A stretch of 64,000 nucleotides of DNA from Cellulomonas wangleii (GTDB taxonomy: Bacteria; Actinomycetota; Actinomycetes; Actinomycetales; Cellulomonadaceae), in the NCBI RefSeq assembly GCF_018388445.1, contig NZ_CP074405.1, forward strand, positions 1,922,001 to 1,986,000, read 5' to 3'. Within the stretch, counting starts at the first letter, position 1; the number at the start of each line of letters is the position of its first letter. Below, in pieces: positions 7,424 through 22,540 of this stretch. The notes beneath the pieces are model-generated. The model searched no databases. It saw only the letters and a program-made list of their open reading frames with translations, and had not been told where the DNA came from. The position numbers and the translations under genes are program-made.

Positions 7424-7801
7424 TTACAGCGAGTCGCCCCAGCGGTACCCGAGAAGGGCGAGCAGCACGGCCACCACGAGCACGCCGATGCCGTAGGCGA
7501 GCGCGACGCCGTATTTCTTCTGCCGCACGAGCTGGACGAGCTCGTAGCTCGCGGTGCTGAACGTCGTGTAGCCGCCGAGGAATCCCGTGCCGACCGCGGC
7601 GCTCACGTCGGTCGAGGCCAGGTCGCCAGCGACCAGCCCGGTGAGGAACCCGAGGACGAACGAGCCGGTCAGGTTGATCACGGTGGTCGGCCACGGGAAG
7701 GCGGACGTGGTACGCGAGCGCACCAGCGCGTCGACGACGTACCGCGTGCAGGCGCCGATGCCGCCGGCGACGACCACGAGCAGGAACAGGCCCGGCGTCA
7801 T
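7424..7801 (-). CDS. crcB: CrcB/Fluc fluoride channel, second of pair
   Basis: 125-residue four-helix membrane protein of the CrcB/Fluc family, which forms antiparallel dimers that let fluoride leave the cell. Seen here are the N-terminal GGIGACTRYVVD (family GxxGAxxRY), the NLTGSFVLGF segment and GTGFLGGYTTFSTASYE, the hallmark TTFST break that lines the pore. ATG at 7801 overlaps the upstream crcB stop in ATGA. Two consecutive crcB genes usually encode a heterodimer with fixed opposite orientations. No fluoride riboswitch was found upstream of the pair. It converges with the nitrate reductase gene. Confidence 0.93.
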   Translation of the reverse strand: MTPGLFLLVVVAGGIGACTRYVVDALVRSRTTSAFPWPTTVINLTGSFVLGFLTGLVAGDLASTDVSAAVGTGFLGGYTTFSTASYELVQLVRQKKYGVALAYGIGVLVVAVLLALLGYRWGDSL

Positions 7802-8334
7802 GACGTCCTCCCGTGGGCGGGGCTGGTGTCGGCGTGTCCCTCGATGCGCCGCAGCTCGTGCGCGTCGGGCTGGTGCGGGTGCAGCCGTGAGCCGAGCGCG
7901 ATGCCGGCGAGCGTCGCCAGGGCACCCACCACGACCGTGCCCAGCGCGTACAGCACGGCCACGCCGCCGCGGGAGTGGTCGAGCAGGACCGCGGTGTCGG
8001 TGGCCAGGGAGCTGTACGTGCTCAGGCCGCCGCAGAACCCGGTGCCGACGAGCAGCTTGAGCCGGCCCGCCAGCGGCGTGCCCGGCAGGGCGCGGGCGAC
8101 GCCCTCGTACAGGTAGCCGAGCACGAAGGCGGCGAGCAGGTTGACCAGCGGGATGACCACCGGGACCTCGTCGACGTCCGGCACGGCGAGCGAGAGCCCT
8201 TCGCGCGCGGCGACTCCGGCCGCTCCGCCGAGCAGCACGAGCCCGACTGCCGACCATCGCAGCGTGACGTGGCGGGGCGCCGCGTGCGGCGTGCCGCCGG
8301 CGGGAGGGGGAGCACTCCCCGGTGCCTGAGCCAT
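7798..8334 (-). CDS. crcB: CrcB/Fluc fluoride channel, first of pair
   Basis: 178-residue CrcB homologue, longer than its partner because of an Ala/Pro-rich N-terminal tail (first ~25 residues) and a charged His-containing C-terminal tail. Family features: GGAAGVAAREGL, LVNLLAAFVLGYLYE and GTGFCGGLSTYSSLATD (STYSS in place of the partner's TTFST). ATG 8334 begins the conserved frame; the ORF extends upstream but that part is Arg-rich and crosses a repeat. The 4-base overlap with the next crcB points to a heterodimeric channel with asymmetric tails. Confidence 0.92.
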   Translation of the reverse strand: MAQAPGSAPPPAGGTPHAAPRHVTLRWSAVGLVLLGGAAGVAAREGLSLAVPDVDEVPVVIPLVNLLAAFVLGYLYEGVARALPGTPLAGRLKLLVGTGFCGGLSTYSSLATDTAVLLDHSRGGVAVLYALGTVVVGALATLAGIALGSRLHPHQPDAHELRRIEGHADTSPAHGRTS

Positions 8335-8395
8335 GGGCGCCAGCGTAGGGCGAGAAAAGCTCCGGCGCGCCCTTTGACGGGCCGTCGCGCAAGCG

Positions 8396-8459
8396 AATCG
8401 ATTCATTTGGCCACATGTCCAGGGATGGTGCGGCGAAGGGAAATCGATTCATTTGACCA
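8396..8459. repeat. two direct copies of an 18-base element, LacI-operator-like
   Basis: AATCGATTCATTTGGCCA at 8396 and AATCGATTCATTTGACCA at 8442 differ at one base and lie 46 bases apart. Each core AATCGATT is palindromic and fits the AANCGNTT core bound by LacI-family proteins. GTCCAG-rich words follow both copies and recur at 8545 and near 7353. The site sits between divergent crcB and ureA. No LacI gene is present in the window. Apart from this and the ureA promoter, the 8335-8634 gap is featureless to me. Confidence 0.55.
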
Positions 8460-8634: not shown

Positions 8635-8940
8635 ATGGATCTGACACCTCGTGAAAGGGAGAAGCTCTACGTGTACCAGGTGGCCCAGCTGGCCCGGCAA
8701 CGCCGCGAGCGAGGCACCAAGCTGAACGTCAGCGAGGTCCAGGCGCTGGTCTCGGAGGCGATCATCGAGGGCGCGCGTGACGGCAAGTCCGTCGCGGAGT
8801 GCATGGAGCTCGGCAAGCACGTCGTCGCCGAGTCCGACTGCATGCCCGGCGTCAGGGAGCGGGTCTCGCTGCTGCAGGTCGAGGCGACGTTCCCCGACGG
8901 CAGCAAGCTGGTCTCCTGTCACGACCCCGTGTCGGCCTGA
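8635..8940 (+). CDS. ureA: urease gamma subunit
   Basis: 101 residues, the standard length for a separate UreA. The N-terminus MDLTPREREKLYVY, the central LNVSEVQALVSEAIIEGARD and GVRERVSLLQVEATFPDG are the characteristic UreA blocks. The subunit assembles with UreB and UreC in the cytoplasm into the nickel enzyme that hydrolyses urea to ammonia and carbamate. ATG 8635 was chosen over an in-frame upstream start because it matches the family N-terminus; a weak AAGG lies about 9 bases upstream. It is followed after 2 bases by the CbiX-like gene, which separates it from ureB. Confidence 0.95.
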   Translation: MDLTPREREKLYVYQVAQLARQRRERGTKLNVSEVQALVSEAIIEGARDGKSVAECMELGKHVVAESDCMPGVRERVSLLQVEATFPDGSKLVSCHDPVSA

Positions 8941-8942
8941 GC

Positions 8943-9806
8943 ATGGCCGGCTCCCACGTCCGACCAGTGCTGGTCGGCGGGCACGAGAGCGCGCGGGGGG
9001 CCGACCTCGAGCGGCTCCGCGGTGCCCTGCCGGGCGCCGCCGTGTGCGCGCCGGGGCGCTCGCTGCAGGACGCGGTGCGGGCGGGCCTCGCGGCCGGCCC
9101 GGAGCCCGTCGTCGTCCTGCCGATGACGTGGGGGCGCGACCCGGTGATGGTCGCCGACACGGCGCGCACGCTGCGCTGGCTGGCCGCGGGGTCCGGCAGG
9201 GGGCGGATCGCGCTGGCGGACCAGTTCGGGACGGTCGACCACCTGGTGGCGCTGCTGCGGGCCGCGGCGACGCGAACCGCCGCACGGCACCCGGGGGCGG
9301 GTCTCGTGCTCGCCGCACCCGGGGCCGACCCGTTCGACGACGCGGAGCTCCACCGGGTGGCGCACCTCGTGCGGACGTTCGGGACGGGGCTGGAGATCGG
9401 TGTCGCGTGCGTCGTCACCGACGCCGACCTCGCCCGTGCGGTCCACCGCGTGCGCCTGCTCGGCGCGCAGGACGTCGTGGTCGTGCCGGCCGGCTTCGCC
9501 GCCGCGGCGCCCTCGGCGGACGCGCTCGACGGCGCCGCCTTCTTCGGCCCGCTGCTGTCGGACACCGCGCTGCTGCGGATCGTCCGGGAGCGTCTGGCCG
9601 CGGCGGAGCACGACCTGCAGCACGGTCACGACGGCATCGAGGACGGGCTCGAGGCCGACCACGGACACGGCTACGCGCACTCGCACGCCGGCCTGGAGGG
9701 GGCCGGCCACGAGCACCCGCACGGGCACGGACACCCGCACACCCACCCGCACCGCGCCGCACCCGTCGCTCCGGCGTCCGGTGCGCCCGCACCCGCCCGC
9801 GCCTGA
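8943..9806 (+). CDS. CbiX/SirB-like chelatase-family protein with histidine-rich tail inside the urease operon
   Basis: 287 residues. The first ~215 resemble the CbiX/SirB family (class II chelatases that insert Co, Fe or Ni into tetrapyrroles): a start strand ending in VLVGGHES, where H is the usual first metal ligand, and VVVLPMTWGRDPVMV where the second ligand His of the family (GxHvxxDIP region) would be but is missing. Residues ~222-272 hold 15 histidines in a run of GH, HPH and HGHG units, typical of nickel-storing tails. It lies 2 bases after ureA and 42 before ureB. The operon has no ureE. I infer a nickel-handling accessory protein rather than a sirohydrochlorin chelatase; a canonical chelatase is encoded at 28205. 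Confidence 0.75.
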   Translation: MAGSHVRPVLVGGHESARGADLERLRGALPGAAVCAPGRSLQDAVRAGLAAGPEPVVVLPMTWGRDPVMVADTARTLRWLAAGSGRGRIALADQFGTVDHLVALLRAAATRTAARHPGAGLVLAAPGADPFDDAELHRVAHLVRTFGTGLEIGVACVVTDADLARAVHRVRLLGAQDVVVVPAGFAAAAPSADALDGAAFFGPLLSDTALLRIVRERLAAAEHDLQHGHDGIEDGLEADHGHGYAHSHAGLEGAGHEHPHGHGHPHTHPHRAAPVAPASGAPAPARA

Positions 9807-9848: not shown

Positions 9849-10265
9849 ATGCTCGGCAGCCCGCAGTACCACCACAACGACCAGGACATCGAGATCAACG
9901 CGGGGCGCGAGAAGGTCACCCTCCTCGTGGCCAACACCGGCGACCGCGCCGTGCAGATCGGGTCGCACTTCCACTTCTTCGAGGTGAACCGCGCCCTGAG
10001 GTTCGACCGTGAGAAGGCGTACGGGATGCACCTGGACATCCCGGCCGGCAACGGCGTCCGGATCGAACCGGGCGACACCCGCGAGGTGACGCTCGTCGCG
10101 TACGGCGGCGGCCGCCGGGTCGTCGGGTTCAACAACCTCGTCGACGGGGGCCTCGACTCCCGCCAGACGCGTCTGGACGCGCTGCGTCGGCTCGCCGAGC
10201 GCGAGTTCGCGAACGGGACGCCGGAGCAGCCGGCAGCCGGCACGAAGCACGAGGGGGAGCACTGA
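9849..10265 (+). CDS. ureB: urease beta subunit
   Basis: 138 residues. Contains the UreB core: [31 protein letters not shown], and the block from [10 protein letters not shown] through RIEPGDT to VGFNNLVDG. The C-terminal ~30 residues extend past the core in a charged, low-complexity tail. UreB packs against UreC and completes the active-site entrance. The stop TGA shares a base with the ureC start (TGATG). A ribosome site GAGGAACC lies just before the ATG. Confidence 0.95.
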
Positions 10266-11989
10266 TGGCGATCATCCCGCGCAAGCAGTACACGGACCTG
10301 TACGGCCCCACGGTCGGGGACAAGGTCCATCTGGCCGACTCGAACCTCGTGATCGAGATCGAGCACGACTTCAGCGAAGGGCTCTACGGCGACGAGGTGG
10401 TCTACGGCGGCGGGAAGACCGCACGCGACGGCATGGCGGCCGACCCGCGCACCACCTCGGCGCAGGGCGTGCTGGACCTGGTCATCACCAACGCGATCAT
10501 CCTCGACCCCGTGCTCGGCGTCCTCAAGGGGGACATCGGCGTCAAGGACGGCAAGATCGCCGGTATCGGCAAGGCCGGGAACCCCAACCTCCAGAACGGT
10601 GTCGACCCCCGCCTGGTGGTCGGCCCGGGGACGGAGCTCCTCGCCGGTGAGCACCTGATCGCCACCGCGGGCGGCATCGACGCGCACGTGCACTACATCT
10701 CACCCCAGCAGGGGGACACGGCGATCTGCGGCGGCATCACCACGCTGTTCGGCGGGGGCACCGGCCCCACCGACGGCACGAACGGTGTCACCACCACACC
10801 CGGCGTCTGGAACCTGCACCGCATGCTCGAGGCGGCGGAGGACATGCCCGTCAGCATGGGCTTCTACGGCAAGGGCAACGGCTCGTTGCGCCCGGCGCTC
10901 GAGGAGCAGGTCGAGGCCGGGGCGGCCGCCCTGAAGGTCCACGAGGACTACGGGACGACCCCGGCGGCCCTGAGCAACGCCCTGTCCGTGGCGGACGACT
11001 ACGACGTCCAGATCACCGTGCACACGGACAGCCTCAACGAGGCGGGCTACGTCGAGGACACGATCTCCGCGATCGACGGCCGCACCATCCACACGTTCCA
11101 CACCGAGGGTGCGGGTGGCGGCCACGCGCCGGACATCATGAAGCTGGCCGGGCACCCGAACGTGCTGCCGTCGTCGACGAACCCGACGCTGCCCTACACC
11201 GTGAACTCCGTCGACGAGCTCCTCGACATGGTGATGGTCTGCCACCACCTGTCGCACGACGTCCCCGAGGACGTCGCGTTCGCGGACTCCCGCGTCCGTG
11301 CCGAGACGATCTCGGCCGAGACCGTGCTGCACGACGAGGGCGTCATCTCGATGTTCTCGTCGGACTCCCAGGCGATGGGCCGGATCGGCGAGTCCTTCAC
11401 GCGGGCGTTCCAGACCGCCCACCACAACAAGGACAAGCGCGGCAAGCTGCCGCAGGACGCCGAGGGCAACGACAACTTCCGTGTGCTGCGGTACCTCGCC
11501 AAGATCACGATCAACCCGGCGATCACGTGCGGCATCTCCGACTACGTCGGGTCCCTCGAGGTCGGCAAGATCGCCGACATCGTGCTGTGGCCGGTCGGGT
11601 CGTTCGCGGCCAAGCCGAAGATGGTCCTGCAGGGTGGCCTCGTCAAGTGGGCCGTCATGGGGGAGCCGAACGCCTCGCTGCCGACGCCGCAGCCGGTCTT
11701 CTACCGGCCGATGTTCGGGTCGTTCGGCAGGGCGCAGCAGAGCACCCGGGTGACGTACATGTCGCAGGCGGCCGTCGAGGCCGGTGTCCCGGACAAGCTG
11801 GGCCTGGAGAGCACGGTGCTGCCGGTGCGCCGCACCCGCCAGCTCGGCAAGGGCCACATGGTGCGCAACGGCTCCCTGCCCGTCGTCGACGTGGACCCCG
11901 AGACGTACAAGGTGACGCTCGACGGGGAGCCGGCCCACATCGAACCGGCGCAGACGCTGCCCATGACCCAGCTCTTCTTCCTGGCCTGA
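10265..11989 (+). CDS. ureC: urease alpha subunit (catalytic)
   Basis: 574 residues, full length. All nickel-centre residues are visible: H141 and H143 (DAHVHY), the carbamylated lysine K224 (LKVHED), H253 (VHTDS), H279 (FHTEG) and D367 (SSDSQAMGR); the mobile-flap pair C326-H327 (MVCHHL) is intact. The enzyme hydrolyses urea to ammonia and carbamate in the cytoplasm and should be active if nickel delivery works. It is translationally coupled to ureB and followed after 8 bases by ureF; the ureE gene that often lies here is absent. Confidence 0.98.
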
Positions 11990-11997
11990 GGAGCACG

Positions 11998-12690
11998 GTG
12001 GCGACCGACGTCCGGGCGCTGCTCATGAGCCTGCAGCTGTCCGACTCCGCGTTCCCGAGCGGCTTCTACACGATGTCGCACGGTCTCGAGGGGTTCAGCC
12101 AGGCGCGGCTGGTCGACCACGGGGGGGTGGTCGGCCTGCTGCGCGGGCTGCTGCTGCACGGGGTGGGCCCGGGCGACGCGACAGCGCTCGCCCGGGCCCA
12201 CGAGGCCGCGACCGCGGGCGACTGGGAGCAGGTGCACCGGGTCGACCGTCTGCTGTTCGCGTCCAAGCTCAACGCCGAGATGCGCCGGGCGTCCGTGCGC
12301 AGCGGGCACCAGCTGACGGACGTGGCGGGGGTCGCGGTCGGTGGTCCGGTGATCGGGACGTGGGCGCACGCGATCGCGGCGAAGGAGTCGCCGGGGTGCC
12401 AGCCGGTCGCCACCGCGGTGGTCTACGCGGCGACGGGTGTCGAGACGACCGCGGCGGTCGCGTCCGACCTCGCGGCGTTCGCGATGAGCGTGCTGGGGGC
12501 CGCGCTGCGCCTGCGGCTCGCAGACCACCGCGAGGTCCAGGTGGCGCTGCACGCACTGGCGCCGGTGATCGAGCAGGCGGCCGACGAGGCGGTCGCCCGT
12601 GACCTCGACGACATGGGTGGCTGCGTCCCCCTGGCGGACGTGATGTCGGCGCAGCACGAGCGTGCCGAGGCGCGCCTGTTCGCGAGCTGA
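11998..12690 (+). CDS. ureF: urease accessory protein UreF
   Basis: 230-residue, mostly helical protein. Family marks are LQLSDSAFPSGFYTMSHGLE near the N-terminus and SKLNAEMRRASVRSGHQL in the middle. UreF bridges UreD and UreG on apo-urease and acts on the UreG GTPase cycle during nickel insertion. GTG 11998 lies 8 bases after the ureC stop with GAGGAG overlapping the ureC stop as ribosome site. A 37-base gap precedes ureG. Confidence 0.92.
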   Translation: MATDVRALLMSLQLSDSAFPSGFYTMSHGLEGFSQARLVDHGGVVGLLRGLLLHGVGPGDATALARAHEAATAGDWEQVHRVDRLLFASKLNAEMRRASVRSGHQLTDVAGVAVGGPVIGTWAHAIAAKESPGCQPVATAVVYAATGVETTAAVASDLAAFAMSVLGAALRLRLADHREVQVALHALAPVIEQAADEAVARDLDDMGGCVPLADVMSAQHERAEARLFAS

Positions 12691-12727: not shown

Positions 12728-13363
12728 ATGAACGAGAACGTGTTGCGGGTCGGCATCGGTGGCCCGGTGGGCTCCGGAAAGACCGCCCTGACCGAGGCGC
12801 TGGTGCCCCGGCTGATCGCCGTGGGCCGGCGCCCGGCCGTGATCACCAACGACATCTACACGCAGGAGGACGCGCACCACGTGCGGCGCGAGCTCGCGGG
12901 CGTGCTCGACCCCGAGCGCGTGGTCGGCGTCGAGACCGGCGCGTGCCCGCACACCGCGGTGCGCGACGACCCGACGATGAACCTGGCGGCCGGTGCCGAG
13001 ATGCTCGAGCGGTTCCCGGACGTCGACACGCTGCTGTACGAGTCGGGCGGCGACAACCTCACGCTCACGTTCTCCCCGGCGCTCGTGGACGTGTTCGTCT
13101 TCGTCCTCGACACCTCGGAGGGCGAGAAGATGCCGCGCAAGCGGGGGCCGGGCATCACGGACTCCGACATCCTCGTCATCAACAAGATCGACATCGCGCA
13201 GTACGTCCGCACCGACCTGGGCGTCATGGAGTCCGACGCCTACCGGGTCCGCGACGGCAAGCCGGTCGTGCTGACCAACTCGCTCACCGGCGAGGGCGTC
13301 GACGTCCTGCAGGACCAGATCCTGGCCATGTGGGACGAGCGCAGCCGCGCCCTGGTGCCGTGA
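12728..13363 (+). CDS. ureG: urease accessory GTPase UreG
   Basis: 211 residues. The P-loop is G12-T19 (GPVGSGKT), the metal-binding CPH motif is C73-P74-H75, then ESGGDNL and the base-recognition NKID. UreG dimerises on GTP and nickel binding through the CPH motifs and passes nickel to UreDF-urease. The N-terminus lacks the His-rich stretch some UreG proteins carry, so nickel storage must be elsewhere; the CbiX-like protein is the obvious candidate. ATG 12728 has GGACGGAGACGAGG upstream. The stop overlaps the ureD GTG. Confidence 0.96.
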   Translation: MNENVLRVGIGGPVGSGKTALTEALVPRLIAVGRRPAVITNDIYTQEDAHHVRRELAGVLDPERVVGVETGACPHTAVRDDPTMNLAAGAEMLERFPDVDTLLYESGGDNLTLTFSPALVDVFVFVLDTSEGEKMPRKRGPGITDSDILVINKIDIAQYVRTDLGVMESDAYRVRDGKPVVLTNSLTGEGVDVLQDQILAMWDERSRALVP

Positions 13364-14397
13364 GCGCAGACCTCGCTGCCCAGCCGGCCACGCCCGCCGT
13401 CCCGACGCGCCCGCGGGCGCGTCGGGACGAGGGTGTGCCCCCCGGCGGGCCGGTGCCGGCGTACGGGGGCCACCACCTGCAGCCGGCGTACTACGAGCCG
13501 CGGCGCGTGCCCCGGGAGGTCGCCCGTTTCGCCGGCGTGCCCACCATGCTGCCCACGGGCAGCCCGGGCAAGGTCGGCATCCTCGACCTGGAGTTCGCTC
13601 TCACCGGCCACGGCACCGAGCTGGTGGAGCACTACCAGAAGTCGCCGCTGCAGATCATGCGCCCGCTCTACTACGACCCGCAGCGTCCCGACATGCCGTA
13701 CCTCTACCTCATGTCCACCGGCGCGGGCGTGCTGCAGGGGGACCGGCTGCGGACCGACCTGCGGTTCGGGCCCGGCACCAGCGCCTACGTCACGACCACG
13801 GCGTACACGCGGGTGCTGCGCATGGAGGCCGACTACGCGGTGGCGCTCACGACCGTCGAGGTCGGCGAGGACGCGTACGTCGAGTACCTGCCGGAGCCGG
13901 TCGTCATGTTCCTCGACGCACGCCTCTACCAGAGCACCCGGCTGATCGTCGCGGAGTCGGGGACGCTCATCGCCGGTGAGACCCTGCTGGCCGGGCGGCT
14001 GGCCCGCGGCGAGCGCCACCGGTACGCGGCGCTGGCCTCCGACGTCGAGATCCGCCGTCCGGACGGGACCGTGCTGGCGCTCGACCGGGTACGCCTGACG
14101 CCGCAGGACGGCGGGACCGGCGGCCTGGCGGTGCTCGCCGACCACGACGTGCTGGGCATGCTCTACGTCGTCACGCCGCTGGCGACGGCCCGCGAGCTCG
14201 CCGACCTGCTGCACGCCGAGCTCGCCGACGCGCCCGACGTCCTGCTGGGCGTCAGCGCCCTGCCCGGCGACGTCGGCGCCTGGGTCCGGATCGTCGGCGA
14301 CGCGACGGCGCCCGTCACGCACGCGACGGCGCGCGCGTGGCGGGCGCTGCGGCTGCACCTGACCGGTGCGCCCGCGCCGCTGGTGCGCAAGACCTGA
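13360..14397 (+). CDS. ureD: urease accessory protein UreD
   Basis: 345 residues. After a variable ~60-residue Pro-rich N-terminus the family core appears: GKVGILDLEFALTGHGTELV, QKSPLQIMRPLYYDP, STGAGVLQGDRL, TTTAYTRVLRMEADYA and YVEYLPEPVVMFLDA. UreD (UreH) is the scaffold that binds apo-urease and channels nickel from UreG. GTG 13360 overlaps the ureG stop by 4 bases. A perfect hairpin 3 bases after the stop separates it from the transporter. Confidence 0.94.
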   Translation: MSADLAAQPATPAVPTRPRARRDEGVPPGGPVPAYGGHHLQPAYYEPRRVPREVARFAGVPTMLPTGSPGKVGILDLEFALTGHGTELVEHYQKSPLQIMRPLYYDPQRPDMPYLYLMSTGAGVLQGDRLRTDLRFGPGTSAYVTTTAYTRVLRMEADYAVALTTVEVGEDAYVEYLPEPVVMFLDARLYQSTRLIVAESGTLIAGETLLAGRLARGERHRYAALASDVEIRRPDGTVLALDRVRLTPQDGGTGGLAVLADHDVLGMLYVVTPLATARELADLLHAELADAPDVLLGVSALPGDVGAWVRIVGDATAPVTHATARAWRALRLHLTGAPAPLVRKT

Positions 14398-14453: not shown

Positions 14454-15380
14454 ATGGCAGCAACGACGTCGCCGAACATGTCCTCGAGGGCCGGCTCCGC
14501 GCTGGACCCCCGCGCGCTCGCGGACGGGCTGTCGCAGATCTTCTTCCAGCGCAACGTGTGGACGGGCCTGCTCATCCTGGCCGCGTTCGTCGTCGCGGAC
14601 TGGCGCATGGCGCTGCTCGTCGTCATCGGCACGATCGCCGGGACGCTCACCGGGGCGCTCATCGGGGCGGACGACGTGCCGCTGGGCATGCAGGGCTTCT
14701 GCGGCGCGCTGCTGGGCGCCGCCGTCTACACGGCGCTGGGCAGCCAGGGCTGGGCCTACCCGATCGCGTTCGTCGGCGGCATCGCGTGCGCGTTCGTCAC
14801 CTGGTTCTTCGTGCGTCTGTTCGCCAGCCAGCCCTTGAAGCGGTTCGCGCTGCCCGCGACGACGGCACCGTTCTGCGTCGTCGCCGGGGTCATGCACGCG
14901 ACGACCGCGAGCCTGCAGGAGCGCTCGCCCGCCGTGCACGTCACCGACGGCACCGTGGGCACGTACCTGCGCTCGCTGCTCACGAACGTCTCCGAGGTCG
15001 TCCTGGTGAGCAGCGTGTGGGCCGGCGCGCTGATCCTGCTGGGCCTGTTCATCGCCTCGTGGAAGGTGGGGCTCGCGGCCGTGATGGGCAGCGTCGTGGG
15101 CAGCCTGTGCGCGTTCGCGCTGGGGTGGTCCGAGTCGGACATCGGCGAGGGCCTGGCCGGCTACTCCGGGGTCCTGACCGCGATCGCGCTGTCGGTCGTG
15201 TTCCTGCGCAGCAGCGCCGCGTCCTGGATCTACGCCGCCGTCGGCACGGTGGTGACCGCCGTGGTGACCCTGGCGCTGAACGACGCGACCGACGCCCCGC
15301 ACTACACGTGGCCCTACATCCTCACGACGTGGGTGTTCCTGATCATCGCGTCGGCCGTCCCCGCCCTGCGGCGGCCATGA
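14454..15380 (+). CDS. urea transporter (UT family)
   Basis: 308-residue membrane protein with about 10 hydrophobic segments in two similar halves, as in the UT/Yut channel fold. Each half carries the family-like stretch: GLSQIFFQRNVWTGLLIL then MQGFCGALLGAAVY early, and GEGLAGYSGVLTAIALS late. It should let urea enter down its gradient. ATG 14454 has TCAGGAGAG upstream. Its position directly after ureD fits urea uptake feeding urease. Its stop codon overlaps the next gene (ATGA), which couples it to the pseudo-ATPase/YhgE/FUSC cassette. Confidence 0.88.
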   Translation: MAATTSPNMSSRAGSALDPRALADGLSQIFFQRNVWTGLLILAAFVVADWRMALLVVIGTIAGTLTGALIGADDVPLGMQGFCGALLGAAVYTALGSQGWAYPIAFVGGIACAFVTWFFVRLFASQPLKRFALPATTAPFCVVAGVMHATTASLQERSPAVHVTDGTVGTYLRSLLTNVSEVVLVSSVWAGALILLGLFIASWKVGLAAVMGSVVGSLCAFALGWSESDIGEGLAGYSGVLTAIALSVVFLRSSAASWIYAAVGTVVTAVVTLALNDATDAPHYTWPYILTTWVFLIIASAVPALRRP

Positions 15381-16339
15381 CGGTCGACGCGCCGCGGCCG
15401 CCCGCCGGGCGGGTCGCTCGCCGCGCCCGCCGGGACGCCGTCCGGCACCCGCCGCCCCCCACAGCGGGCCCGGTGCGGCTGACGCTGGACGACGTGCACG
15501 TCACCGGCCGGCACGGGCCCATGCTCGACCTGCCCGGCCTGACCTTCGGCACAGGGGAGTGCGTGCTGCTGGCGGGTGATCCGGGGGAGGGCCACACGGC
15601 GCTCGCGCTGGTCGCGACCGGTCGGCTCTCCCCGCACACCGGGACCGTCACGCTGACGACGGCCGACGGCGCCAGCACCACGACGCCCGCGGCGCTGCGC
15701 GCGCTGACCGCTGTGGTGGACCTGCCCGAGGTCTCCGAGCCGGACGACGTGCTGACGGTCGGCACCGTCGTGGCCGAGGAGCTCGCGCTCGCGCGTCGGC
15801 CCAGCAGCGCCCGCGCTGCGCGCGAGTGGCTCGCGGACCACGACATGGCCGACCGGCTCGGGACGCGCGTGGCCGAGCTGGACGGGCCGCGGCGCACCGC
15901 GCTGCTGACCTCCCTGGCGTCCGAGCGGCCGGGCGTGCGGCTGCTGGTGCTGACGCTGCCCGACCGTCACGGCGGCGACCCGTCGGGCTGGTGGGCGATC
16001 GCGCAGGCGTTCGCCGCCCGCGGCCTCGGGGTGCTGGTGCAGTGCACGCGGGCGTCGGCGAACCACCTCGGCGTACCCGTGGCCGGCACCCGGGGCGACG
16101 CGGCGGGACGGGCCGCCCACGTCGAGGTGACACGCACGGCGCCCGGCGTGCGGCGGACGGCGGACGACGTGACGACAGGGGAGCTGCCCGCCGTGGGCGG
16201 CACGCCCGACGACGCGGTCGACGGCACGCCTGACGACCCGCCTGACGACCCGCCTGACGACCCGCCCGACGACCCGCCCGACGACCCGCCCGACGACCGA
16301 CCCGACGACCCGCCGCCGGGAGAGGGGCGTGCGTCGTGA
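15377..16339 (+). CDS. degenerate ABC-type ATPase with Pro-Asp repeat tail
   Basis: 320 residues. Residues ~32-230 keep the layout of an ABC nucleotide-binding domain, but every catalytic motif is altered: the Walker A is GDPGEGHT (67-74), with His73 in place of the essential Lys; the signature site reads LDGPR instead of LSGGQ; the Walker B reads LLVLTLPD (189-196), lacking the Asp-Glu pair. ATP hydrolysis is therefore unlikely. Residues ~276-313 are a TPDDPPDD repeat. The start overlaps the transporter stop (ATGA) and its stop overlaps the YhgE/Pip gene (GTGA). I infer a regulatory or scaffolding partner of the YhgE protein. The fold call rests on motif spacing only. Confidence 0.7.
   Translation: MTVDAPRPPAGRVARRARRDAVRHPPPPTAGPVRLTLDDVHVTGRHGPMLDLPGLTFGTGECVLLAGDPGEGHTALALVATGRLSPHTGTVTLTTADGASTTTPAALRALTAVVDLPEVSEPDDVLTVGTVVAEELALARRPSSARAAREWLADHDMADRLGTRVAELDGPRRTALLTSLASERPGVRLLVLTLPDRHGGDPSGWWAIAQAFAARGLGVLVQCTRASANHLGVPVAGTRGDAAGRAAHVEVTRTAPGVRRTADDVTTGELPAVGGTPDDAVDGTPDDPPDDPPDDPPDDPPDDPPDDRPDDPPPGEGRAS
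16229..16312 (+). repeat. seven tandem 12-base units encoding Pro-Asp-Asp-Pro
   Basis: Units of CCTGACGACCCG (three copies) then CCCGACGACCCG (four, one with a final A) run without gaps inside the pseudo-ATPase gene. Copy number is a multiple of codons, so expansion or contraction keeps the frame. The neighbouring copies are nearly identical, which points to recent slippage. Confidence 0.85.
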
Positions 16340-18402
16340 TCATCGCGCGCCTCACCGGCACCGAGCTGCGCCGCCTCGCCGCGGGGACCCTCCCCAAGCT
16401 GGCGCTCCTGGCGCTCGTCGTCATCCCCTCGCTGTACTCGGGGCTGTACCTCTTCGCGAACGAGGACCCGTACGGCCGGCTGGACCACGTCCCGGCCGCC
16501 CTGGTCGTGCGCGACCGCGGTGCGACGACCACGGACCCGGAGGACGGCAGCACCCGCCGGGTGGACTACGGGCAGGAGGTCGCCGACCGCCTGGCCGACG
16601 GGCGCGGCGGGTTCCGCTGGGTGCGGACCTCCCAGGCGGAGGCCGAGGCCGGGGTCCGGTCCGACCGGTTCGACGCGGCCCTGATCATCGGGCCGTCCTT
16701 CTCGCAGGACCTCGTCTCGTCCGCCGAGTACCGCCCGCAGCAGGCGAGCCTGACGCTGGTGACCAACGACGCCAACAACTACCTGTCCACGACCATCGCG
16801 GACACGATCGCCGACGACGTGCGCGACGCCATCGCCACCCAGGTGGGGACGCAGGCCGCGACGGTGTTCCTGCAGGGCTTCGGCTCCATCCACACCAACC
16901 TCGCCCAGGGCGTCCAGGGTGCGGACCGGCTGGTCGACGGCGCCGGTGAGCTGGCGACAGGGACCGCGGAGCTGGTGGGAGGGACGGGGCGCCTGGCGTG
17001 GGGGGCGCAGGAGGCATCCCGCGGCGCGGCCGAGCTGGCGGGCGGTCTGGACACGCTGCGGGCGGACACCCGCGGGCTGCCGGACGCCACACGCCGGCTG
17101 GCCGCGGGCGCGGCGAAGGTGGCAGCGGGTGACGACGAGATCGAGAGGGTCGCGACACAGGTCGAGGCGGCCGCGGCGAGGGCGACGGCCGAGGCGCAGG
17201 CTGCGGCGAGAGCGGCGGAGGAAGGTGCCCGGCGGTTGGAGGAGCGACGCGGGACGGACGAGGGGCAGGATCTCGACGCTGCGTTGCTGGCTCTCGACGA
17301 CGCGCGAGCGGTGGTCCAGGACCAGCTGAACGCCCTGCAGGACGAGGGCTACCTCACGCCCGAGCAGGTCCAGGCCCTGACCGATCCCGTCCCGAGGCTG
17401 GAGGGCGAGCTCGCCTCGGCCCAGGCGGCCCTGCACCAGGCGACCACCGACCTGAGGGCGCTCGACATCGGCGCCCGGGAGGTCGCACAGGGCGACGCGG
17501 CGCTCGCGGAGGCCGCGCCGAGGCTCGCGCAGGGCATCGCCTCCGCGGCCGCCGGCGCCGGTCGGCTCTCGTCGGGCACCGCGCAGGTGTCCCAGGGCGC
17601 CGAGGAGCTCGCCATCAGCAGCGTCACGCTGCACAACGGCACGAACCAGCTGGCGTCCGGGGTCACCGAGCTGCGCGACGGCCTGCAGTCCGGGCTGGAA
17701 CGGATCCCGGACCTCGACCAGCAGACGGAGCGCGACACGGCGCGCACGATCGGCGACCCCGTGCGGGTGGCCGACGACCAGCTCGCCCGCGCCGGCAGCT
17801 ACGGGGCGGGCCTGGCCCCGTTCTTCATGTCGCTGGCCACCTGGATCGGCGGGTACGTGCTGTTCCTGCTCGTGCGGCCGCTGTCCCAGCGGGCGCTCGC
17901 CGCCGGCGCCCCGGCGTGGCGCACCGCGCTGGGCGGGTGGCTGCCGGCGGTGGTCCTCGGGGCGGGGCAGGTGGTGCTCATGACCGCCCTGGTCGCGTTC
18001 GCGCTGGACATCCGGCCCGTCTACGGCGCCTACACGGTGCTCCTGCTCCTGCTCGCGTCGGCGGCGTTCATCGCGGTCCTGCAGGCGCTGAACGTCTGGT
18101 TCGGCGCCGTCGGGGAGTTCCTGGGCCTCGTGCTCATGCTCGTGCAGCTCGTCACGGCCGGCGGGACCTTCCCGTGGCAGACGATCCCCGAGCCGCTGCT
18201 GTCGGTGCACCGCCTGCTGCCCATGTCGTACACCGTCGACGGGCTGCGGCAGACGCTCTACGGCGGCGACCTGGCGAGCGCCGCCGGTGACGCCGCCGTC
18301 CTGGCCGGGGTCCTCGTCCTGGGCCTGGCGGCCACGACGTGGGCGGCGTACCGGCGCCGCACGTGGACGCCCAACCGCCTGCAGCCCGAGCTGGTGCTCT
18401 GA
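16336..18402 (+). CDS. YhgE/Pip-type membrane protein
   Basis: 688 residues. One N-terminal membrane helix (about 18-38: LALLALVVIPSLYSGLYLF) is followed by NEDPYGRLDHVPAALVVRD, the YhgE/Pip hallmark. A large extracytoplasmic part (~50-490) is built of Gly/Ala-rich, coiled-coil-like repeats containing GAGELATGTAEL- and GAAELAGGLD-type units. Five membrane helices (~505-670) close the protein and resemble an ABC-2 permease. Relatives include phage-infection protein Pip and the ESX-associated EsaA-like proteins; function in actinomycetes is unclear, possibly envelope export. GTG 16336 overlaps the pseudo-ATPase stop, which suggests the two form one complex. Confidence 0.85.
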   Translation: MIIARLTGTELRRLAAGTLPKLALLALVVIPSLYSGLYLFANEDPYGRLDHVPAALVVRDRGATTTDPEDGSTRRVDYGQEVADRLADGRGGFRWVRTSQAEAEAGVRSDRFDAALIIGPSFSQDLVSSAEYRPQQASLTLVTNDANNYLSTTIADTIADDVRDAIATQVGTQAATVFLQGFGSIHTNLAQGVQGADRLVDGAGELATGTAELVGGTGRLAWGAQEASRGAAELAGGLDTLRADTRGLPDATRRLAAGAAKVAAGDDEIERVATQVEAAAARATAEAQAAARAAEEGARRLEERRGTDEGQDLDAALLALDDARAVVQDQLNALQDEGYLTPEQVQALTDPVPRLEGELASAQAALHQATTDLRALDIGAREVAQGDAALAEAAPRLAQGIASAAAGAGRLSSGTAQVSQGAEELAISSVTLHNGTNQLASGVTELRDGLQSGLERIPDLDQQTERDTARTIGDPVRVADDQLARAGSYGAGLAPFFMSLATWIGGYVLFLLVRPLSQRALAAGAPAWRTALGGWLPAVVLGAGQVVLMTALVAFALDIRPVYGAYTVLLLLLASAAFIAVLQALNVWFGAVGEFLGLVLMLVQLVTAGGTFPWQTIPEPLLSVHRLLPMSYTVDGLRQTLYGGDLASAAGDAAVLAGVLVLGLAATTWAAYRRRTWTPNRLQPELVL

Positions 18403-18423
18403 CCCACCGACGAGGAGACGCCC

Positions 18424-21400
18424 GTGGACGTGCTGTGGCTGGTGCTGGGCGTGGTCGTCCTTCTCGGCACGCTCCTCGACGTCTTCCTCACGGCGCTCAA
18501 CTACGACGAGTCGGGGTTCCTGGCGGCGCCGATGACGCGGCTGCAGTGGCGCAGCCTGCGGGCGGTCACCCGGCGGCTGCCGCGACGCTGGCGCCCGACG
18601 GCGCTGCGGCAGGTCACCGGCCTGCAGGTGGTCCTCACGATCGTGCTGTGGGTCTTCGGCACGGTCGTCGGCTACGGGCTCGTCTACTACGGCCTGATGA
18701 CGCCGACCGCGTTCTCCGTCTCGGGGACGGGAGCGTCGCTGGACCTGTTCAGCGCGCTCTACTTCAGCGCCGCCCAGCTGTCGACGGTCGGCGGCTCGTC
18801 GTTGACGGCGGAGACCGACCTGCTGCGCTTCCTCAGCATCACCGAGACCTTGACGGGCGTGCTCCTGCTGTCCCTGGTCCTCACGTACCTGCTCGGCGTG
18901 TACTCGGTGATCGGTGACCTCAACAGCCTGTGCACCCGGTTCGTCACCGCGGAGCGCGGGGCGGGGTCCGCCGTCGCGAGCATCGCCCCGTACTTCCGCG
19001 ACGGTCAGCCCAACGGGCTCGACGGGCACCTCGACGACGTCGGCGACGCCTTCGGGTCGTACACCGACGGGCTGCGGCTGCACTTCGCGGCGTACTACTT
19101 CCAGAGCGGGCGGGACCAGTTCGCCCTGCCCTACGCGCTGCGCATGACCGGGGGGACGATCGCTGCGCTGCGCTGGGGCCTGCCCACCGGGCACCCCGGG
19201 GCCGCCGTGCCCCGGCTCGAGCCGCTGACCTTCGAGCTCCTCGAGTTCGGGGACTACCTGCAGCGCCGGCTCCGCTGGACGAGCACCGACGTCCCTGAGG
19301 TCGTCGACGCGGAGCGCTTCGCCCGGATCGCCGACGGTGAGGTGCCGGACGACGTGAGCGGGGTGTGGGCGGCCCGGTTCCTGCAGCTCGACCAGGACAT
19401 GGCCACTCTCGCGGGCGTGCGGCCCGGCGCCGACCCGGCCGACACGTACCGGCGGTACACCGGCTGGCTGCCGTTCGCGTACCGGTCGCAGCAGGTCAGC
19501 GTCGCCGTCGCACGCGACCTCGACTACCAGCCGGTGATCGTCACCGACCAGCCGGTCTCGATCCTGCACCCGCAGGGCGCGCTGTCGCTGCGCGGCGTCG
19601 AGGAGTACCTGTCCGGCCCGCCCGAGCCGACGCGGCCGGACGCCGCCGGGCGGCGGGCCGTGTCCCGGTGGCACACCTTCCTGCGGGAGCACGTCGCGCA
19701 GGTCGACCCGGGTTACGCGCGGCTGCGCGCGGCCACCCGTGCGCTGCTCGCGGCCGTGGGGGCCGCGCTGACGGGCTACCTCCTGCTGCGGGCCCTCGGC
19801 GAGGACGTCCTGACGCCCGCGCTGTTCGGCGGCTTCGTCGGCATGCTGAGCGCGGGCATCGCGGTGGACCGCACGGTGCGCGCGCGTCGCGCCACGAGCG
19901 TCCTGCTCCTCGTGCCGGTGGTCGTCGTCGTCGTGCTCGGCGCCCTGGTGTCCGGCTCGCCGGTGTGGACCGCGGTGCTCGTCGTGGTCGTGGCCGTCGC
20001 CGGCACCTGGATGGCCCGCTTCGGGCCCCGGTGGGCGGCCCTGGGCCGCACGACCTTCATGGTCTACTACTTCGCCCTGATCCTGCGCCTGGAGCTGTCC
20101 GACGTCGGGTTCTACCTCGCGACGGCGGCTCTCGGCGTGGCCTGGGGCTTCCTGCTCACCAACGTCCTCCTGCCCGAGCGTCCCGTCCGGGTCCTGCGCG
20201 CGGGCATCAGCGGCTACCAGCGTGAGCTCGTCGCGTCGATCGACACGCTCGTCGACGCCGTCTCCTGGGCGCGCTGGGACCCCGACGTCAGGAAGCGCGT
20301 CGCGGTGGACCAGCGCCGGCTCACCCGCGGGGCGGCGTTCATGACGGGCCAGCTCACGGGCCCGCCGGAGGCGACAGGGCTCGAGCCGCGGCAGGCCGTG
20401 GGGCTGCGCCTGCGGCTCCTGGACACGACCCTGTCCGCGTCGCACCTGGTGGGTGCGGCCCGGGACGTGACGGGCACGGCGGTGTCGCTGGAGCTGCGCG
20501 GGCGGCTGGCAGGCCGCCTCGAGCTGCTGCGGGCGCACCTGCAGCAGCTCGCCGCGGGCCACGACGCCGCAGCTGCGCGCGAGGCCTCCACGCCCCGGGT
20601 CGACCCCTGGGACGCGCCGCCGCCGCCCGCGCAGTGGCCCGCACCGGCGCGTGCGCTGTGGCGCTCGATGAACGAGCTGTACGAGGTGGCGGCCGGGCTG
20701 AGCGCCACGCTCCGCACGGTCGTGGAGCCCGCGACGGGGACAGACCGGGCCGCGGCACCGGACGCCCCGGTCCCGGCCGGGCGTGGCGCCCCTGACCGGG
20801 GGTCGGCGGACGCCGACGCCGACGCGGACGCGGACGCGGACGCGCTGGAGGAGCTCGACTGGAACGGTGCGGACCCGCAGGCGACCGGCCTGCACCTGTC
20901 GTCGGTGACCCGCCGCTCGGCTCAGGCCGGCATCGCGGTGGGCGCCGCGCTCGTCATCGCCGAGCTCCTGTCCTCCTCCCACCAGTACTGGGCGACCCTC
21001 GCGGCCTACCAGGTGCTCGGCGGCACCGACGGGGAGACGCGCCTCAAAGGGCTGCAGCGCGTCGGTGGCACCGTCGTGGGCGCGGTGATCGGGTTCGGCG
21101 TGGCCATCTGGTCGGGCCACGAGCCGTGGGTGCTGGTCCCGCTGCTGGCCGTCGCCGTCTTCGCCGCGACCTACTACAACCGGGTCTCCCCGGCGGCGTC
21201 GGTCCTGTGGCGCACGATGCTGTTCGCGGTCGTCTACGAGTTCCTCGGCCGGCTCACGCCCGTCGCGCTGGAGCTGCGCGTGCTCGAGACGCTGCTGGGT
21301 GCGGCGGCCGCCGTGGTGGTCGCCTGGCTCGTCCTGCCGACCCGGACCGCAGCCGTCCTCGACAAGGACACGACACAGCTCGTGCGGGACCTCGCGGCGC

Positions 21401-21912
21401 TCGTGACGACGGCCGTCGGGCACCTGGAGTCCGGCAGGTCGGTGTCGACGAAGGCGATGCGCGAGCGGGTGCTCGTCGCCGAGCGCGAGGCGCGGGGCGT
21501 CTCCGCCACCGCCGCCCCGCTGCGGCGGGCGGCGGGCGCGTCCGCCGCAGCGGGTGTCGAGGCGCGGCTGACCGCGTTGTGGGCGCTCACCTACGACACC
21601 CGCTACCTGGTGCGGAACGTCGAGGCGGCGATCCGCGCGGGCTCGACCCGCGAGGCGCGTGACTGGGCCGCGGTGCGCACGACGCTGCAGGTCAACTTCA
21701 CGGCGCTGCTCGACGTCCTCACCGGCCGCCTGCCGACCGAGGTGCGGCCCGACCTGCCGGAGACCGGGGTCGCGGACGCTCCCGCGGGCAGCCCTCTCGA
21801 GGGCATCGGGCGCCGTCTCGAGCGCATCAACGACACGCTCGTCCTGCTGGTGCAGACCGCCTCGCCCGGGGTGGTCGACCGGCAGGAGGACGACGGACGC
21901 GTGGACGCCTGA
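18424..21912 (+). CDS. ion-channel-like domain fused to a double FUSC-type exporter
   Basis: 1162 residues. Residues 1-~165 look like a channel pore unit: membrane helices near 3-22 and 62-88, a re-entrant pore segment with STVGG at 120-124 (potassium channels normally carry TVGYG), and a helix ~136-160. A soluble stretch with several hundred residues follows. Two FUSC/aromatic-acid-exporter membrane blocks are at ~445-590 and ~835-975; the second has QYWATLAAYQVLGG and LKGLQRVGGTVVGAVIG, the family signature. Between them lies an Asp-Ala repeat (codons 795-807). GTG 18424 follows the YhgE stop by 21 bases. I infer an envelope efflux or stress protein acting with YhgE. The substrate is unknown. 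Confidence 0.75.
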   Translation: MDVLWLVLGVVVLLGTLLDVFLTALNYDESGFLAAPMTRLQWRSLRAVTRRLPRRWRPTALRQVTGLQVVLTIVLWVFGTVVGYGLVYYGLMTPTAFSVSGTGASLDLFSALYFSAAQLSTVGGSSLTAETDLLRFLSITETLTGVLLLSLVLTYLLGVYSVIGDLNSLCTRFVTAERGAGSAVASIAPYFRDGQPNGLDGHLDDVGDAFGSYTDGLRLHFAAYYFQSGRDQFALPYALRMTGGTIAALRWGLPTGHPGAAVPRLEPLTFELLEFGDYLQRRLRWTSTDVPEVVDAERFARIADGEVPDDVSGVWAARFLQLDQDMATLAGVRPGADPADTYRRYTGWLPFAYRSQQVSVAVARDLDYQPVIVTDQPVSILHPQGALSLRGVEEYLSGPPEPTRPDAAGRRAVSRWHTFLREHVAQVDPGYARLRAATRALLAAVGAALTGYLLLRALGEDVLTPALFGGFVGMLSAGIAVDRTVRARRATSVLLLVPVVVVVVLGALVSGSPVWTAVLVVVVAVAGTWMARFGPRWAALGRTTFMVYYFALILRLELSDVGFYLATAALGVAWGFLLTNVLLPERPVRVLRAGISGYQRELVASIDTLVDAVSWARWDPDVRKRVAVDQRRLTRGAAFMTGQLTGPPEATGLEPRQAVGLRLRLLDTTLSASHLVGAARDVTGTAVSLELRGRLAGRLELLRAHLQQLAAGHDAAAAREASTPRVDPWDAPPPPAQWPAPARALWRSMNELYEVAAGLSATLRTVVEPATGTDRAAAPDAPVPAGRGAPDRGSADADADADADADALEELDWNGADPQATGLHLSSVTRRSAQAGIAVGAALVIAELLSSSHQYWATLAAYQVLGGTDGETRLKGLQRVGGTVVGAVIGFGVAIWSGHEPWVLVPLLAVAVFAATYYNRVSPAASVLWRTMLFAVVYEFLGRLTPVALELRVLETLLGAAAAVVVAWLVLPTRTAAVLDKDTTQLVRDLAALVTTAVGHLESGRSVSTKAMRERVLVAEREARGVSATAAPLRRAAGASAAAGVEARLTALWALTYDTRYLVRNVEAAIRAGSTREARDWAAVRTTLQVNFTALLDVLTGRLPTEVRPDLPETGVADAPAGSPLEGIGRRLERINDTLVLLVQTASPGVVDRQEDDGRVDA
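20806..20844 (+). repeat. Ala-Asp hexanucleotide repeat
   Basis: About six GCSGAC units encode alternating Ala-Asp residues in the linker between the two FUSC halves. An acidic flexible hinge is the simplest reading. Confidence 0.7.
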
Positions 21913-22042: not shown

Positions 22043-22540
22043 TCAGACGTCCTCCTGGAACGCCTCGCGCAGCTTGGCCTCCTCCTCGGAGGACAGGTTC
22101 GTCGCGAGCAGCTCGCCGTGGATGCCCTGCTCCCGCAGCGAGGCGACGATCCGGTCGGGGACCTCGCCGGAGGTGAGCAGGAAGAGCGCGGACGTGCCCG
22201 GCGTGACCTTCTCGCGCACCTGCTTGATGAAGTTGTCGTCGATGCCCACGTCCGTCAGGGCCCCGCCGATGGCGCCCGCGGCCGCCCCCACGATCACCCC
22301 GACCAGGGGGATGAAGAACAGCAGGCCGAACAGCAGGCCCCAGAACGTGCCGCCGAGGGCGCCGACCGCCGCGAGGTTGTGCGACTGGCGCGTCTTCGGC
22401 TTCTTCTTGTCCGGCTCCCACGACACCGTGGCGGCGTCCTGCACGTCGATGAGGTGCTGCGTCTGCAGGGCGAGGACCGCGTCCTCCGCCTGCGCCGCCC
22501 CCTCCGGGGTCTCGAACTTCCACACGCTCAGAGTGGCCAC
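22043..22540 (-). CDS. DUF1269-type membrane protein
   Basis: 165 residues. N-terminal ferredoxin-like half (ATLSVWKFETPEGAAQAED, VSWEPDKKKPK), then a Gly/Ala-rich hydrophobic hairpin (LGGTFWGLLFGLLFFIPL and VGAAAGAIGGALTD), then a C-terminal half with DDNFIKQVREKVTPGTSALFLL. This order matches DUF1269 proteins, whose role is unknown; the short glycine-rich hairpin could insert in the membrane. It is divergent from nirB, sharing the 22541-22847 gap, and convergent with the FUSC gene. Confidence 0.8.
   Translation of the reverse strand: MATLSVWKFETPEGAAQAEDAVLALQTQHLIDVQDAATVSWEPDKKKPKTRQSHNLAAVGALGGTFWGLLFGLLFFIPLVGVIVGAAAGAIGGALTDVGIDDNFIKQVREKVTPGTSALFLLTSGEVPDRIVASLREQGIHGELLATNLSSEEEAKLREAFQEDV

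Follow-up and report, generated by a model that had tools for sequence, protein, structure and literature searches.

FUSC proteins are named for the export of small acids, and the FUSC and aromatic acid exporters (PF13515, PF04632, PF06081; YccS-like proteins) are among the closest described relatives of the proteins considered here. Others are the plant ALMT/QUAC1 anion channels, the NaK and KirBac cation channels, and the YhgE/Pip family, which includes the phage infection protein and has N-terminal relatives in EsaA and YueB. In a 64,000-nucleotide stretch of DNA from Cellulomonas wangleii (contig NZ_CP074405.1, positions 1,922,001 to 1,986,000, forward strand; hereafter the window), a urease operon and its urea transporter are followed by three genes. 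The last of these encodes a protein of 1162 amino acids, termed channel-FUSC, in which an ion-channel pore domain is fused to a FUSC-type body. This urease-bound fusion is our main finding; the second is that the two genes before it, which encode a catalytically degenerate ABC ATPase (pseudo-ABC) and a YhgE/Pip membrane protein, are a general pair. The domains are known, so the fusion and its urease linkage are the new part, and no description of them was found in the literature searched.

Architecture and urease linkage of channel-FUSC

The four genes lie head to tail on the plus strand: a UT-type urea transporter (UT; 14454..15380; PF03253, 208.6 bits in Pfam), pseudo-ABC (15377..16339), YhgE/Pip (16336..18402) and channel-FUSC (18424..21912). 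The UT stop codon is overlapped by the pseudo-ABC start (ATGA), the next two genes overlap in the same manner (GTGA), and 21 bases separate YhgE/Pip from channel-FUSC. An earlier note on this sequence had given these gene limits and spacings, which were borne out on re-reading, and its family assignments agree with Pfam and NCBIfam. All genes from ureA through channel-FUSC are on the plus strand, and the gaps between them are short. A simple scan, ill suited to GC-rich actinobacteria, found no internal promoter-like site from ureA to position 21912 and no plus-strand terminator-like site after 8607 up to the same position. A single transcript from ureA through channel-FUSC is likely, judging by this layout.

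The N-terminal part of channel-FUSC (residues 1-181; 18424..18966) holds a two-helix pore domain of the K+ channel type (Ion_trans_2, 24.4 bits, cut-off 22.5), with the pore at residues 54-171 and the filter at about 121-125. The C-terminal FUSC/ALMT-like half (20884..21912) exceeds the Pfam cut-offs for FUSC_2 (66.8 bits against 25.6) and FUSC (32.6 against 30.9), and ArAE_1 also matches. In this half the protein resembles the FUSC/aromatic acid exporters, from which it differs in its fused N-terminal ion-channel domain, its tie to urease and a middle part (residues 400-830; 19621..20913) that Pfam does not match. The middle part shows a helical bundle in the predicted model, and is assigned to the first half of FUSC by position only. 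The closest solved structures by profile are QUAC1/ALMT12 and NaK. Compared with the plant ALMT/QUAC1 channels, however, channel-FUSC is bacterial, carries a fused cation pore, aligns by fold at only 9-13% identity and stays below the Pfam cut-off for ALMT (17.5 bits against 20.6), although some homologues carry a precomputed PF11744 match. Unlike NaK and KirBac channels, it has the filter TVG[G/T]S, after which FUSC follows. In an alignment of 54 of the 63 homologues plus the window protein, TVG is present in 54 of the 55 sequences and the K+-selective filter TVGYG in none, and the best conserved parts are the pore (0.79) and the second helix (0.78). Profile and fold evidence thus points to a predicted NaK/KirBac-like cation pore fused to an ALMT/QUAC1-like FUSC body.

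Among 81 genomes of the genus, 72 of which are at least 90% complete, channel-FUSC is found in seven (G000, G199, G213, G226, G260, G264 and G265; putatively, G226 is C. shaoxiangyii, G260 Cellulomonas sp. KH9 and G265 C. xiejunii). Exactly the same seven, the window's own genome included, carry the window type of ureC at 78-100% identity. Channel-FUSC is therefore present in 7/7 genomes with this ureC and 0/74 others (Fisher 2.9e-10, kinship ignored). In a family sample of 81 genomes it occurs in four, namely the window's and three putatively named Actinotalea (G126), Oerskovia (G155) and Sanguibacter (G168). Across 11 distinct full-length loci (the window, L009, L048, L049, L050, L052 and L055 to L059; L051 is the L050 contig, and L053 and L054 duplicate L049 and L048), window-type ureC is never more than 6.5 kb away from channel-FUSC, and the arrangements vary. 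A further sign of linkage comes from a CbiX-like protein encoded between ureA and ureB. Contig sizes were usable for 62 of the 63 channel-FUSC homologues, and 14 of the 63 lie on contigs size-matched to at least one of the best 120 of 258 CbiX-like homologues; six of these contigs are 15-70 kb, and five exceed 1.6 Mb and are little informative, apart from that of Leifsonia kafniensis, where the two proteins have locus tags 03900 and 03940. No channel-FUSC match at E 1e-30 was found among 72,556 plasmid records.

A second urease type, with ureC 52-54% identical, occurs at 18 places in the genus; five of them lie in genomes that have the window type as well, the remaining 13 in genomes that lack channel-FUSC. 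The window's own genome has such a locus (L061, 763000-782000; ureC 53% identical) without channel-FUSC, beside genes that we take to encode a urea ABC importer-like system (UrtABCDE-like).

The arrangement of the window, in which UT, the pair and channel-FUSC are contiguous, recurs in L048, L055, L057 and L059 (5/11 loci). In two loci (L056, L058) channel-FUSC comes after a FecCD-type importer that follows UT, and in two (L049, L050) it is divergent from ureA. In the Actinotalea locus L052 it immediately precedes ureA in the same orientation, and the pair comes directly after UT at the opposite end (L079). In Georgenia (L009; G067, putatively Georgenia faecalis) it lies beyond a FluC gene pair upstream of ureA, and the pair is again at the other end, after UT and the importer (L008). 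The pair is thus at the channel-FUSC urease locus in 7/11 cases, five contiguous and two at the opposite operon end; it is not in the stretch read at the other four (L049, L050, L056/L080 and L058/L072). The tie to urease that the earlier note had proposed for all three genes is accordingly strong for channel-FUSC and moderate for the pair.

Natural losses separate the components further. Of the genomes in the genus that lack channel-FUSC, G193, G247, G200 and G216 hold the best YhgE relatives, the last on a 3.3 kb contig too short to judge loss. In G193, G247 and G200 (L062, L063 and L064) an intact pair stands amid fragments of a urease locus: FluC and CbiX-like in G193, CbiX-like and UT in G247, and ureA and UT in G200. 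End fragments of channel-FUSC remain in G193 and G200 (2/3 relic loci). All three strains have lost the window-type urease and channel-FUSC, retained the pair, and possess the second urease type. Their pairs are 88-95% identical, and because the strains are close kin, these losses may be one event. The opposite case is seen in G199 and G213, which have retained the window-type urease together with channel-FUSC and show no pair in the stretch read.

By comparison of their parts, the urease/channel-FUSC loci are mosaic. Between the window and G264, ureC has a dS of 0.07 (99% identical) and channel-FUSC a dS of 0.62 (70% identical); between the window and G265, YhgE is 80% identical and channel-FUSC 51%. 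Pairwise identities correlate at 0.85 for pseudo-ABC and YhgE (9 loci), 0.70 for ureC and channel-FUSC (11 loci) and 0.55 for YhgE and channel-FUSC (6 loci). The urease part alone has probably been exchanged recently between the window and L055 loci. In these two loci ureC (10265-11989 in the window, 4069-5793 in L055) is near identical and channel-FUSC strongly diverged.

The pseudo-ABC and YhgE/Pip pair

The ABC domain of the window's pseudo-ABC protein has lost its catalytic motifs, as the earlier note had stated. Walker A reads GDPGEGHT and lacks the Lys, AELDGPRRT stands in place of the LSGGQ signature, and the Walker B region reads LVLTLPDR, where the position aligned with the catalytic Glu holds another residue. 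The Pfam ABC_tran match is under its cut-off (21.3 bits against 25). The predicted structure nevertheless has an ABC fold, with EcfA as its best PDB match (Foldseek, E 6.4e-11), followed by a Pro/Asp-rich tail of low confidence.

This loss was surveyed across ABC domains partnered with YhgE/Pip. Of 54 YhgE ORFs, two had no upstream ORF and three upstream ORFs were excluded (L024, L045, L047); since L048 and L054 represent a single contig, this leaves 48 distinct domains, or 49 with the window's. Three loci in which a simple gene caller gave no YhgE ORF (L028, L031, L044) are uncounted, and the Actinotalea pair (L079) is outside the motif table, the TetR table and the identity correlations. LSGGQ and the catalytic Glu at its aligned position are present in 0/49, the Walker A Lys is kept in 6/49, and the Walker B Asp is kept in several. 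Because the absence of motifs spans 49 domains, catalytic loss is general among these partners. In four rows (L013, L014, L020, L023) a His lies one column off the H-switch, and no loss of the H-switch is claimed there. Within the window's subgroup (36 of 110 homologues plus the window; 37 sequences), a near-invariant His replaces the Walker A Lys and an invariant PDR ends Walker B.

The dN/dS of pseudo-ABC is 0.33 against its closest relative, so the gene is maintained by selection; together with the residues conserved over 37 sequences, this value rules out a decaying pseudogene. The ratio rises to 0.72 with more distant relatives; we attribute this rise to saturated synonymous sites in high-GC DNA and regard the test as firm only for the closest pair. 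It is quite likely, as far as motifs can tell, that the pair works without normal ATP hydrolysis. A working ABC exporter that relies on atypical motifs or a second ATPase would fit the ABC fold and the Lys and Asp residues kept in some partners, but seems improbable given that the signature and catalytic Glu are missing throughout and that the window protein lacks Lys, signature and Glu alike.

The partner protein exceeds the cut-offs of both YhgE/Pip models (TIGR03061, 133.3 bits against 96.15; TIGR03062, 206 bits against 102.2), is ABC-2-like, and differs from other YhgE/Pip proteins in having a pseudo-ABC partner gene. The type VII EsaA model TIGR03929, whose cut-off is 122 bits, gives it only 34.9. 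Among 119 genomes of the same order, pseudo-ABC matches at E < 1e-17 occur in 27 (own genome included), and in 27/27 a YhgE/Pip match adjoins on the same strand. Just two of these 27, the window's genome and G067, have a full-length channel-FUSC. The pair is its own two-gene unit, which joins this urease locus often and is untied to it. Of the 54 YhgE ORFs, 29 have a TetR-type gene no more than three genes away (TetR was checked with Pfam for four proteins), and no such gene is that near to the urease-linked YhgE ORFs in the table (L008, L048/L054, L055, L057, L059). A role in anti-phage defence was rejected, as none of the three proteins matched a PADLOC family at E 0.01.

Proposed function and alternatives

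We propose that two membrane modules stand behind one urease operon, with channel-FUSC as the companion of the urease, an overall explanation to which we give slightly less than an even chance. That channel-FUSC and the pair are separable modules is, on its own, probable. More tentatively, channel-FUSC might be an exit path for the products of urea hydrolysis. Urea would flood in through the UT protein and be hydrolysed by urease; the cation pore of channel-FUSC would let out ammonium or potassium, and its FUSC body bicarbonate, carbamate or another anion. Exit of these ionic products would limit the osmotic and alkaline load. The pseudo-ABC subunit would support YhgE/Pip in a structural or sensing capacity, with no normal ATP hydrolysis. 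The data show the anatomy, the linkage, the pattern of loss, the missing motifs and the resemblance in family and fold; which ions pass, in which direction, how the pore is gated and what the pair does are what we infer here. In its most specific form, in which one polypeptide with a cation pore and an ALMT-like anion path would serve a single urease lineage as its own exit channel for ammonium and bicarbonate, the idea is rather doubtful. Our searches found no paired-ion relief valve of this kind for any urease system. The UreI-type urea channel, a member of an unrelated family, is similar in being a membrane route reserved for the urease operon it accompanies; urea entry is here assigned to UT, however, and channel-FUSC would serve product exit.

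Several observations weigh against this proposal. Of 20 urease-bearing genomes in the genus, 13 have the second urease type only and no channel-FUSC; because they manage without it, the fusion is not needed for urease as such. The linkage may come partly from transfer of the locus as a block. The lack of any Pfam match to the middle part leaves the first half of FUSC unrecognised, the cargo could be organic, and the N-terminal channel domain could be a sensor. Against a division into two modules, the pair does occur at the same urease locus in 7/11 cases, contiguously in 5/11, and pairwise identities in pseudo-ABC track those in channel-FUSC (Pearson 0.90 over 6 loci; a small sample with kinship not removed).

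The last two points favour the view of the earlier note that the pair and channel-FUSC assemble into a single membrane complex, which is made together with urease and possibly acts in export or in envelope stress. Nocardioides sp. zg-DK7169, in which pseudo-ABC and channel-FUSC are on contigs of equal size (392 kb), also speaks for it; a similar match in zg-1228 is the whole 4.05 Mb chromosome and is little informative. Against it, 25 of the 27 same-order genomes with the pair have no full-length channel-FUSC, the pair is not in the stretch read at 4/11 loci and at the opposite operon end at two, and relic loci retained the pair. We therefore reject an obligate three-protein complex as unsupported, and regard the one-complex view as quite unlikely. 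It is possible, though on balance unlikely, that channel-FUSC, like an aromatic acid exporter, carries an organic acid or toxic metabolite out of the cell, with the pore domain only sensing ions or voltage and gating the protein, and that the urease link reflects shared habitat or regulation. The FUSC_2, FUSC and ArAE_1 matches suggest such a cargo, but conservation is highest in the pore and the second helix, TVG is near invariant, and the linkage is specific to one urease type. Channel-FUSC might instead serve metal or fluoride homeostasis of the nickel enzyme, and not the products of urea, alongside the FluC pair, the His-rich CbiX-like protein and the importer, all of which cluster with this urease type. 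The importer is present in only 3/11 loci, however, and nickel is not known to pass through K-channel-like pores or ALMT-like bodies, so we think this improbable as well.

Neighbouring genes and wider meaning

The urease genes begin with ureA (8635..8940, plus strand, as are all genes of the operon), which has homologues at the same place in related loci. The CbiX-like gene follows (8943..9806; PF01903, 18.2 bits, under the cut-off of 22), and its product has a His-rich C-terminal tail. Among the best 120 of 258 homologues, the median is 13 His in the last 60 amino acids, and 119/120 have at least eight. No ureE was noticed at the urease locus, where no dedicated search was made. The CbiX-like protein may be a candidate nickel chaperone of this urease type. 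Next come ureB (9849..10265, by homology and gene order), ureC (10265..11989), ureF (11998..12690; PF01730, 107.8 bits), ureG (12728..13363) and ureD (13360..14397), the last two placed by family and gene order. The start of ureD, set by analogy with L048, overlaps the ureG stop codon. The names ureB, ureC, ureG and ureD are presumptive.

Divergent from ureA, on the minus strand, is a CrcB/FluC-type pair (7424-7801 and 7798-8406; PF02537, 89.6 and 70.1 bits). Fluoride is a known urease inhibitor. Such a pair is at 10/11 urease loci (window, L009, L049, L050, L055, L057/L071, L059, L072, L079 and L080), and the L048 stretch is too short to reach that position. A FecCD permease, a binding protein and a true ABC ATPase follow UT in L008 (10106-13055), L056 and L058, identified with Pfam in L008 and by likeness to it in the other two; this is possibly a nickel importer. 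A DUF1269 protein repeatedly flanks the loci, relics included (window 22043-22540, L008 6569-7084, L009 10659-11174). A large AAA-LuxR regulator comes after channel-FUSC or the pair in several Cellulomonas loci, namely L057 (2779-5373), L059 (16218-18671), L062, L063, L064 and L065; it was identified with Pfam in L059 and by similar protein starts elsewhere.

The disposal of ammonium and bicarbonate under fast urea entry is a question mostly tied to Helicobacter. If our proposal is true, harmless soil actinobacteria would become a place to test product disposal, through a fused two-pore protein whose presence and loss go with one urease type. The pair has a bearing of its own: the wide set of pseudo-ABC proteins paired with YhgE/Pip offers a handle on a membrane family whose domain, according to a paper on enterococcal PIP, is without known function (PMC4999554).

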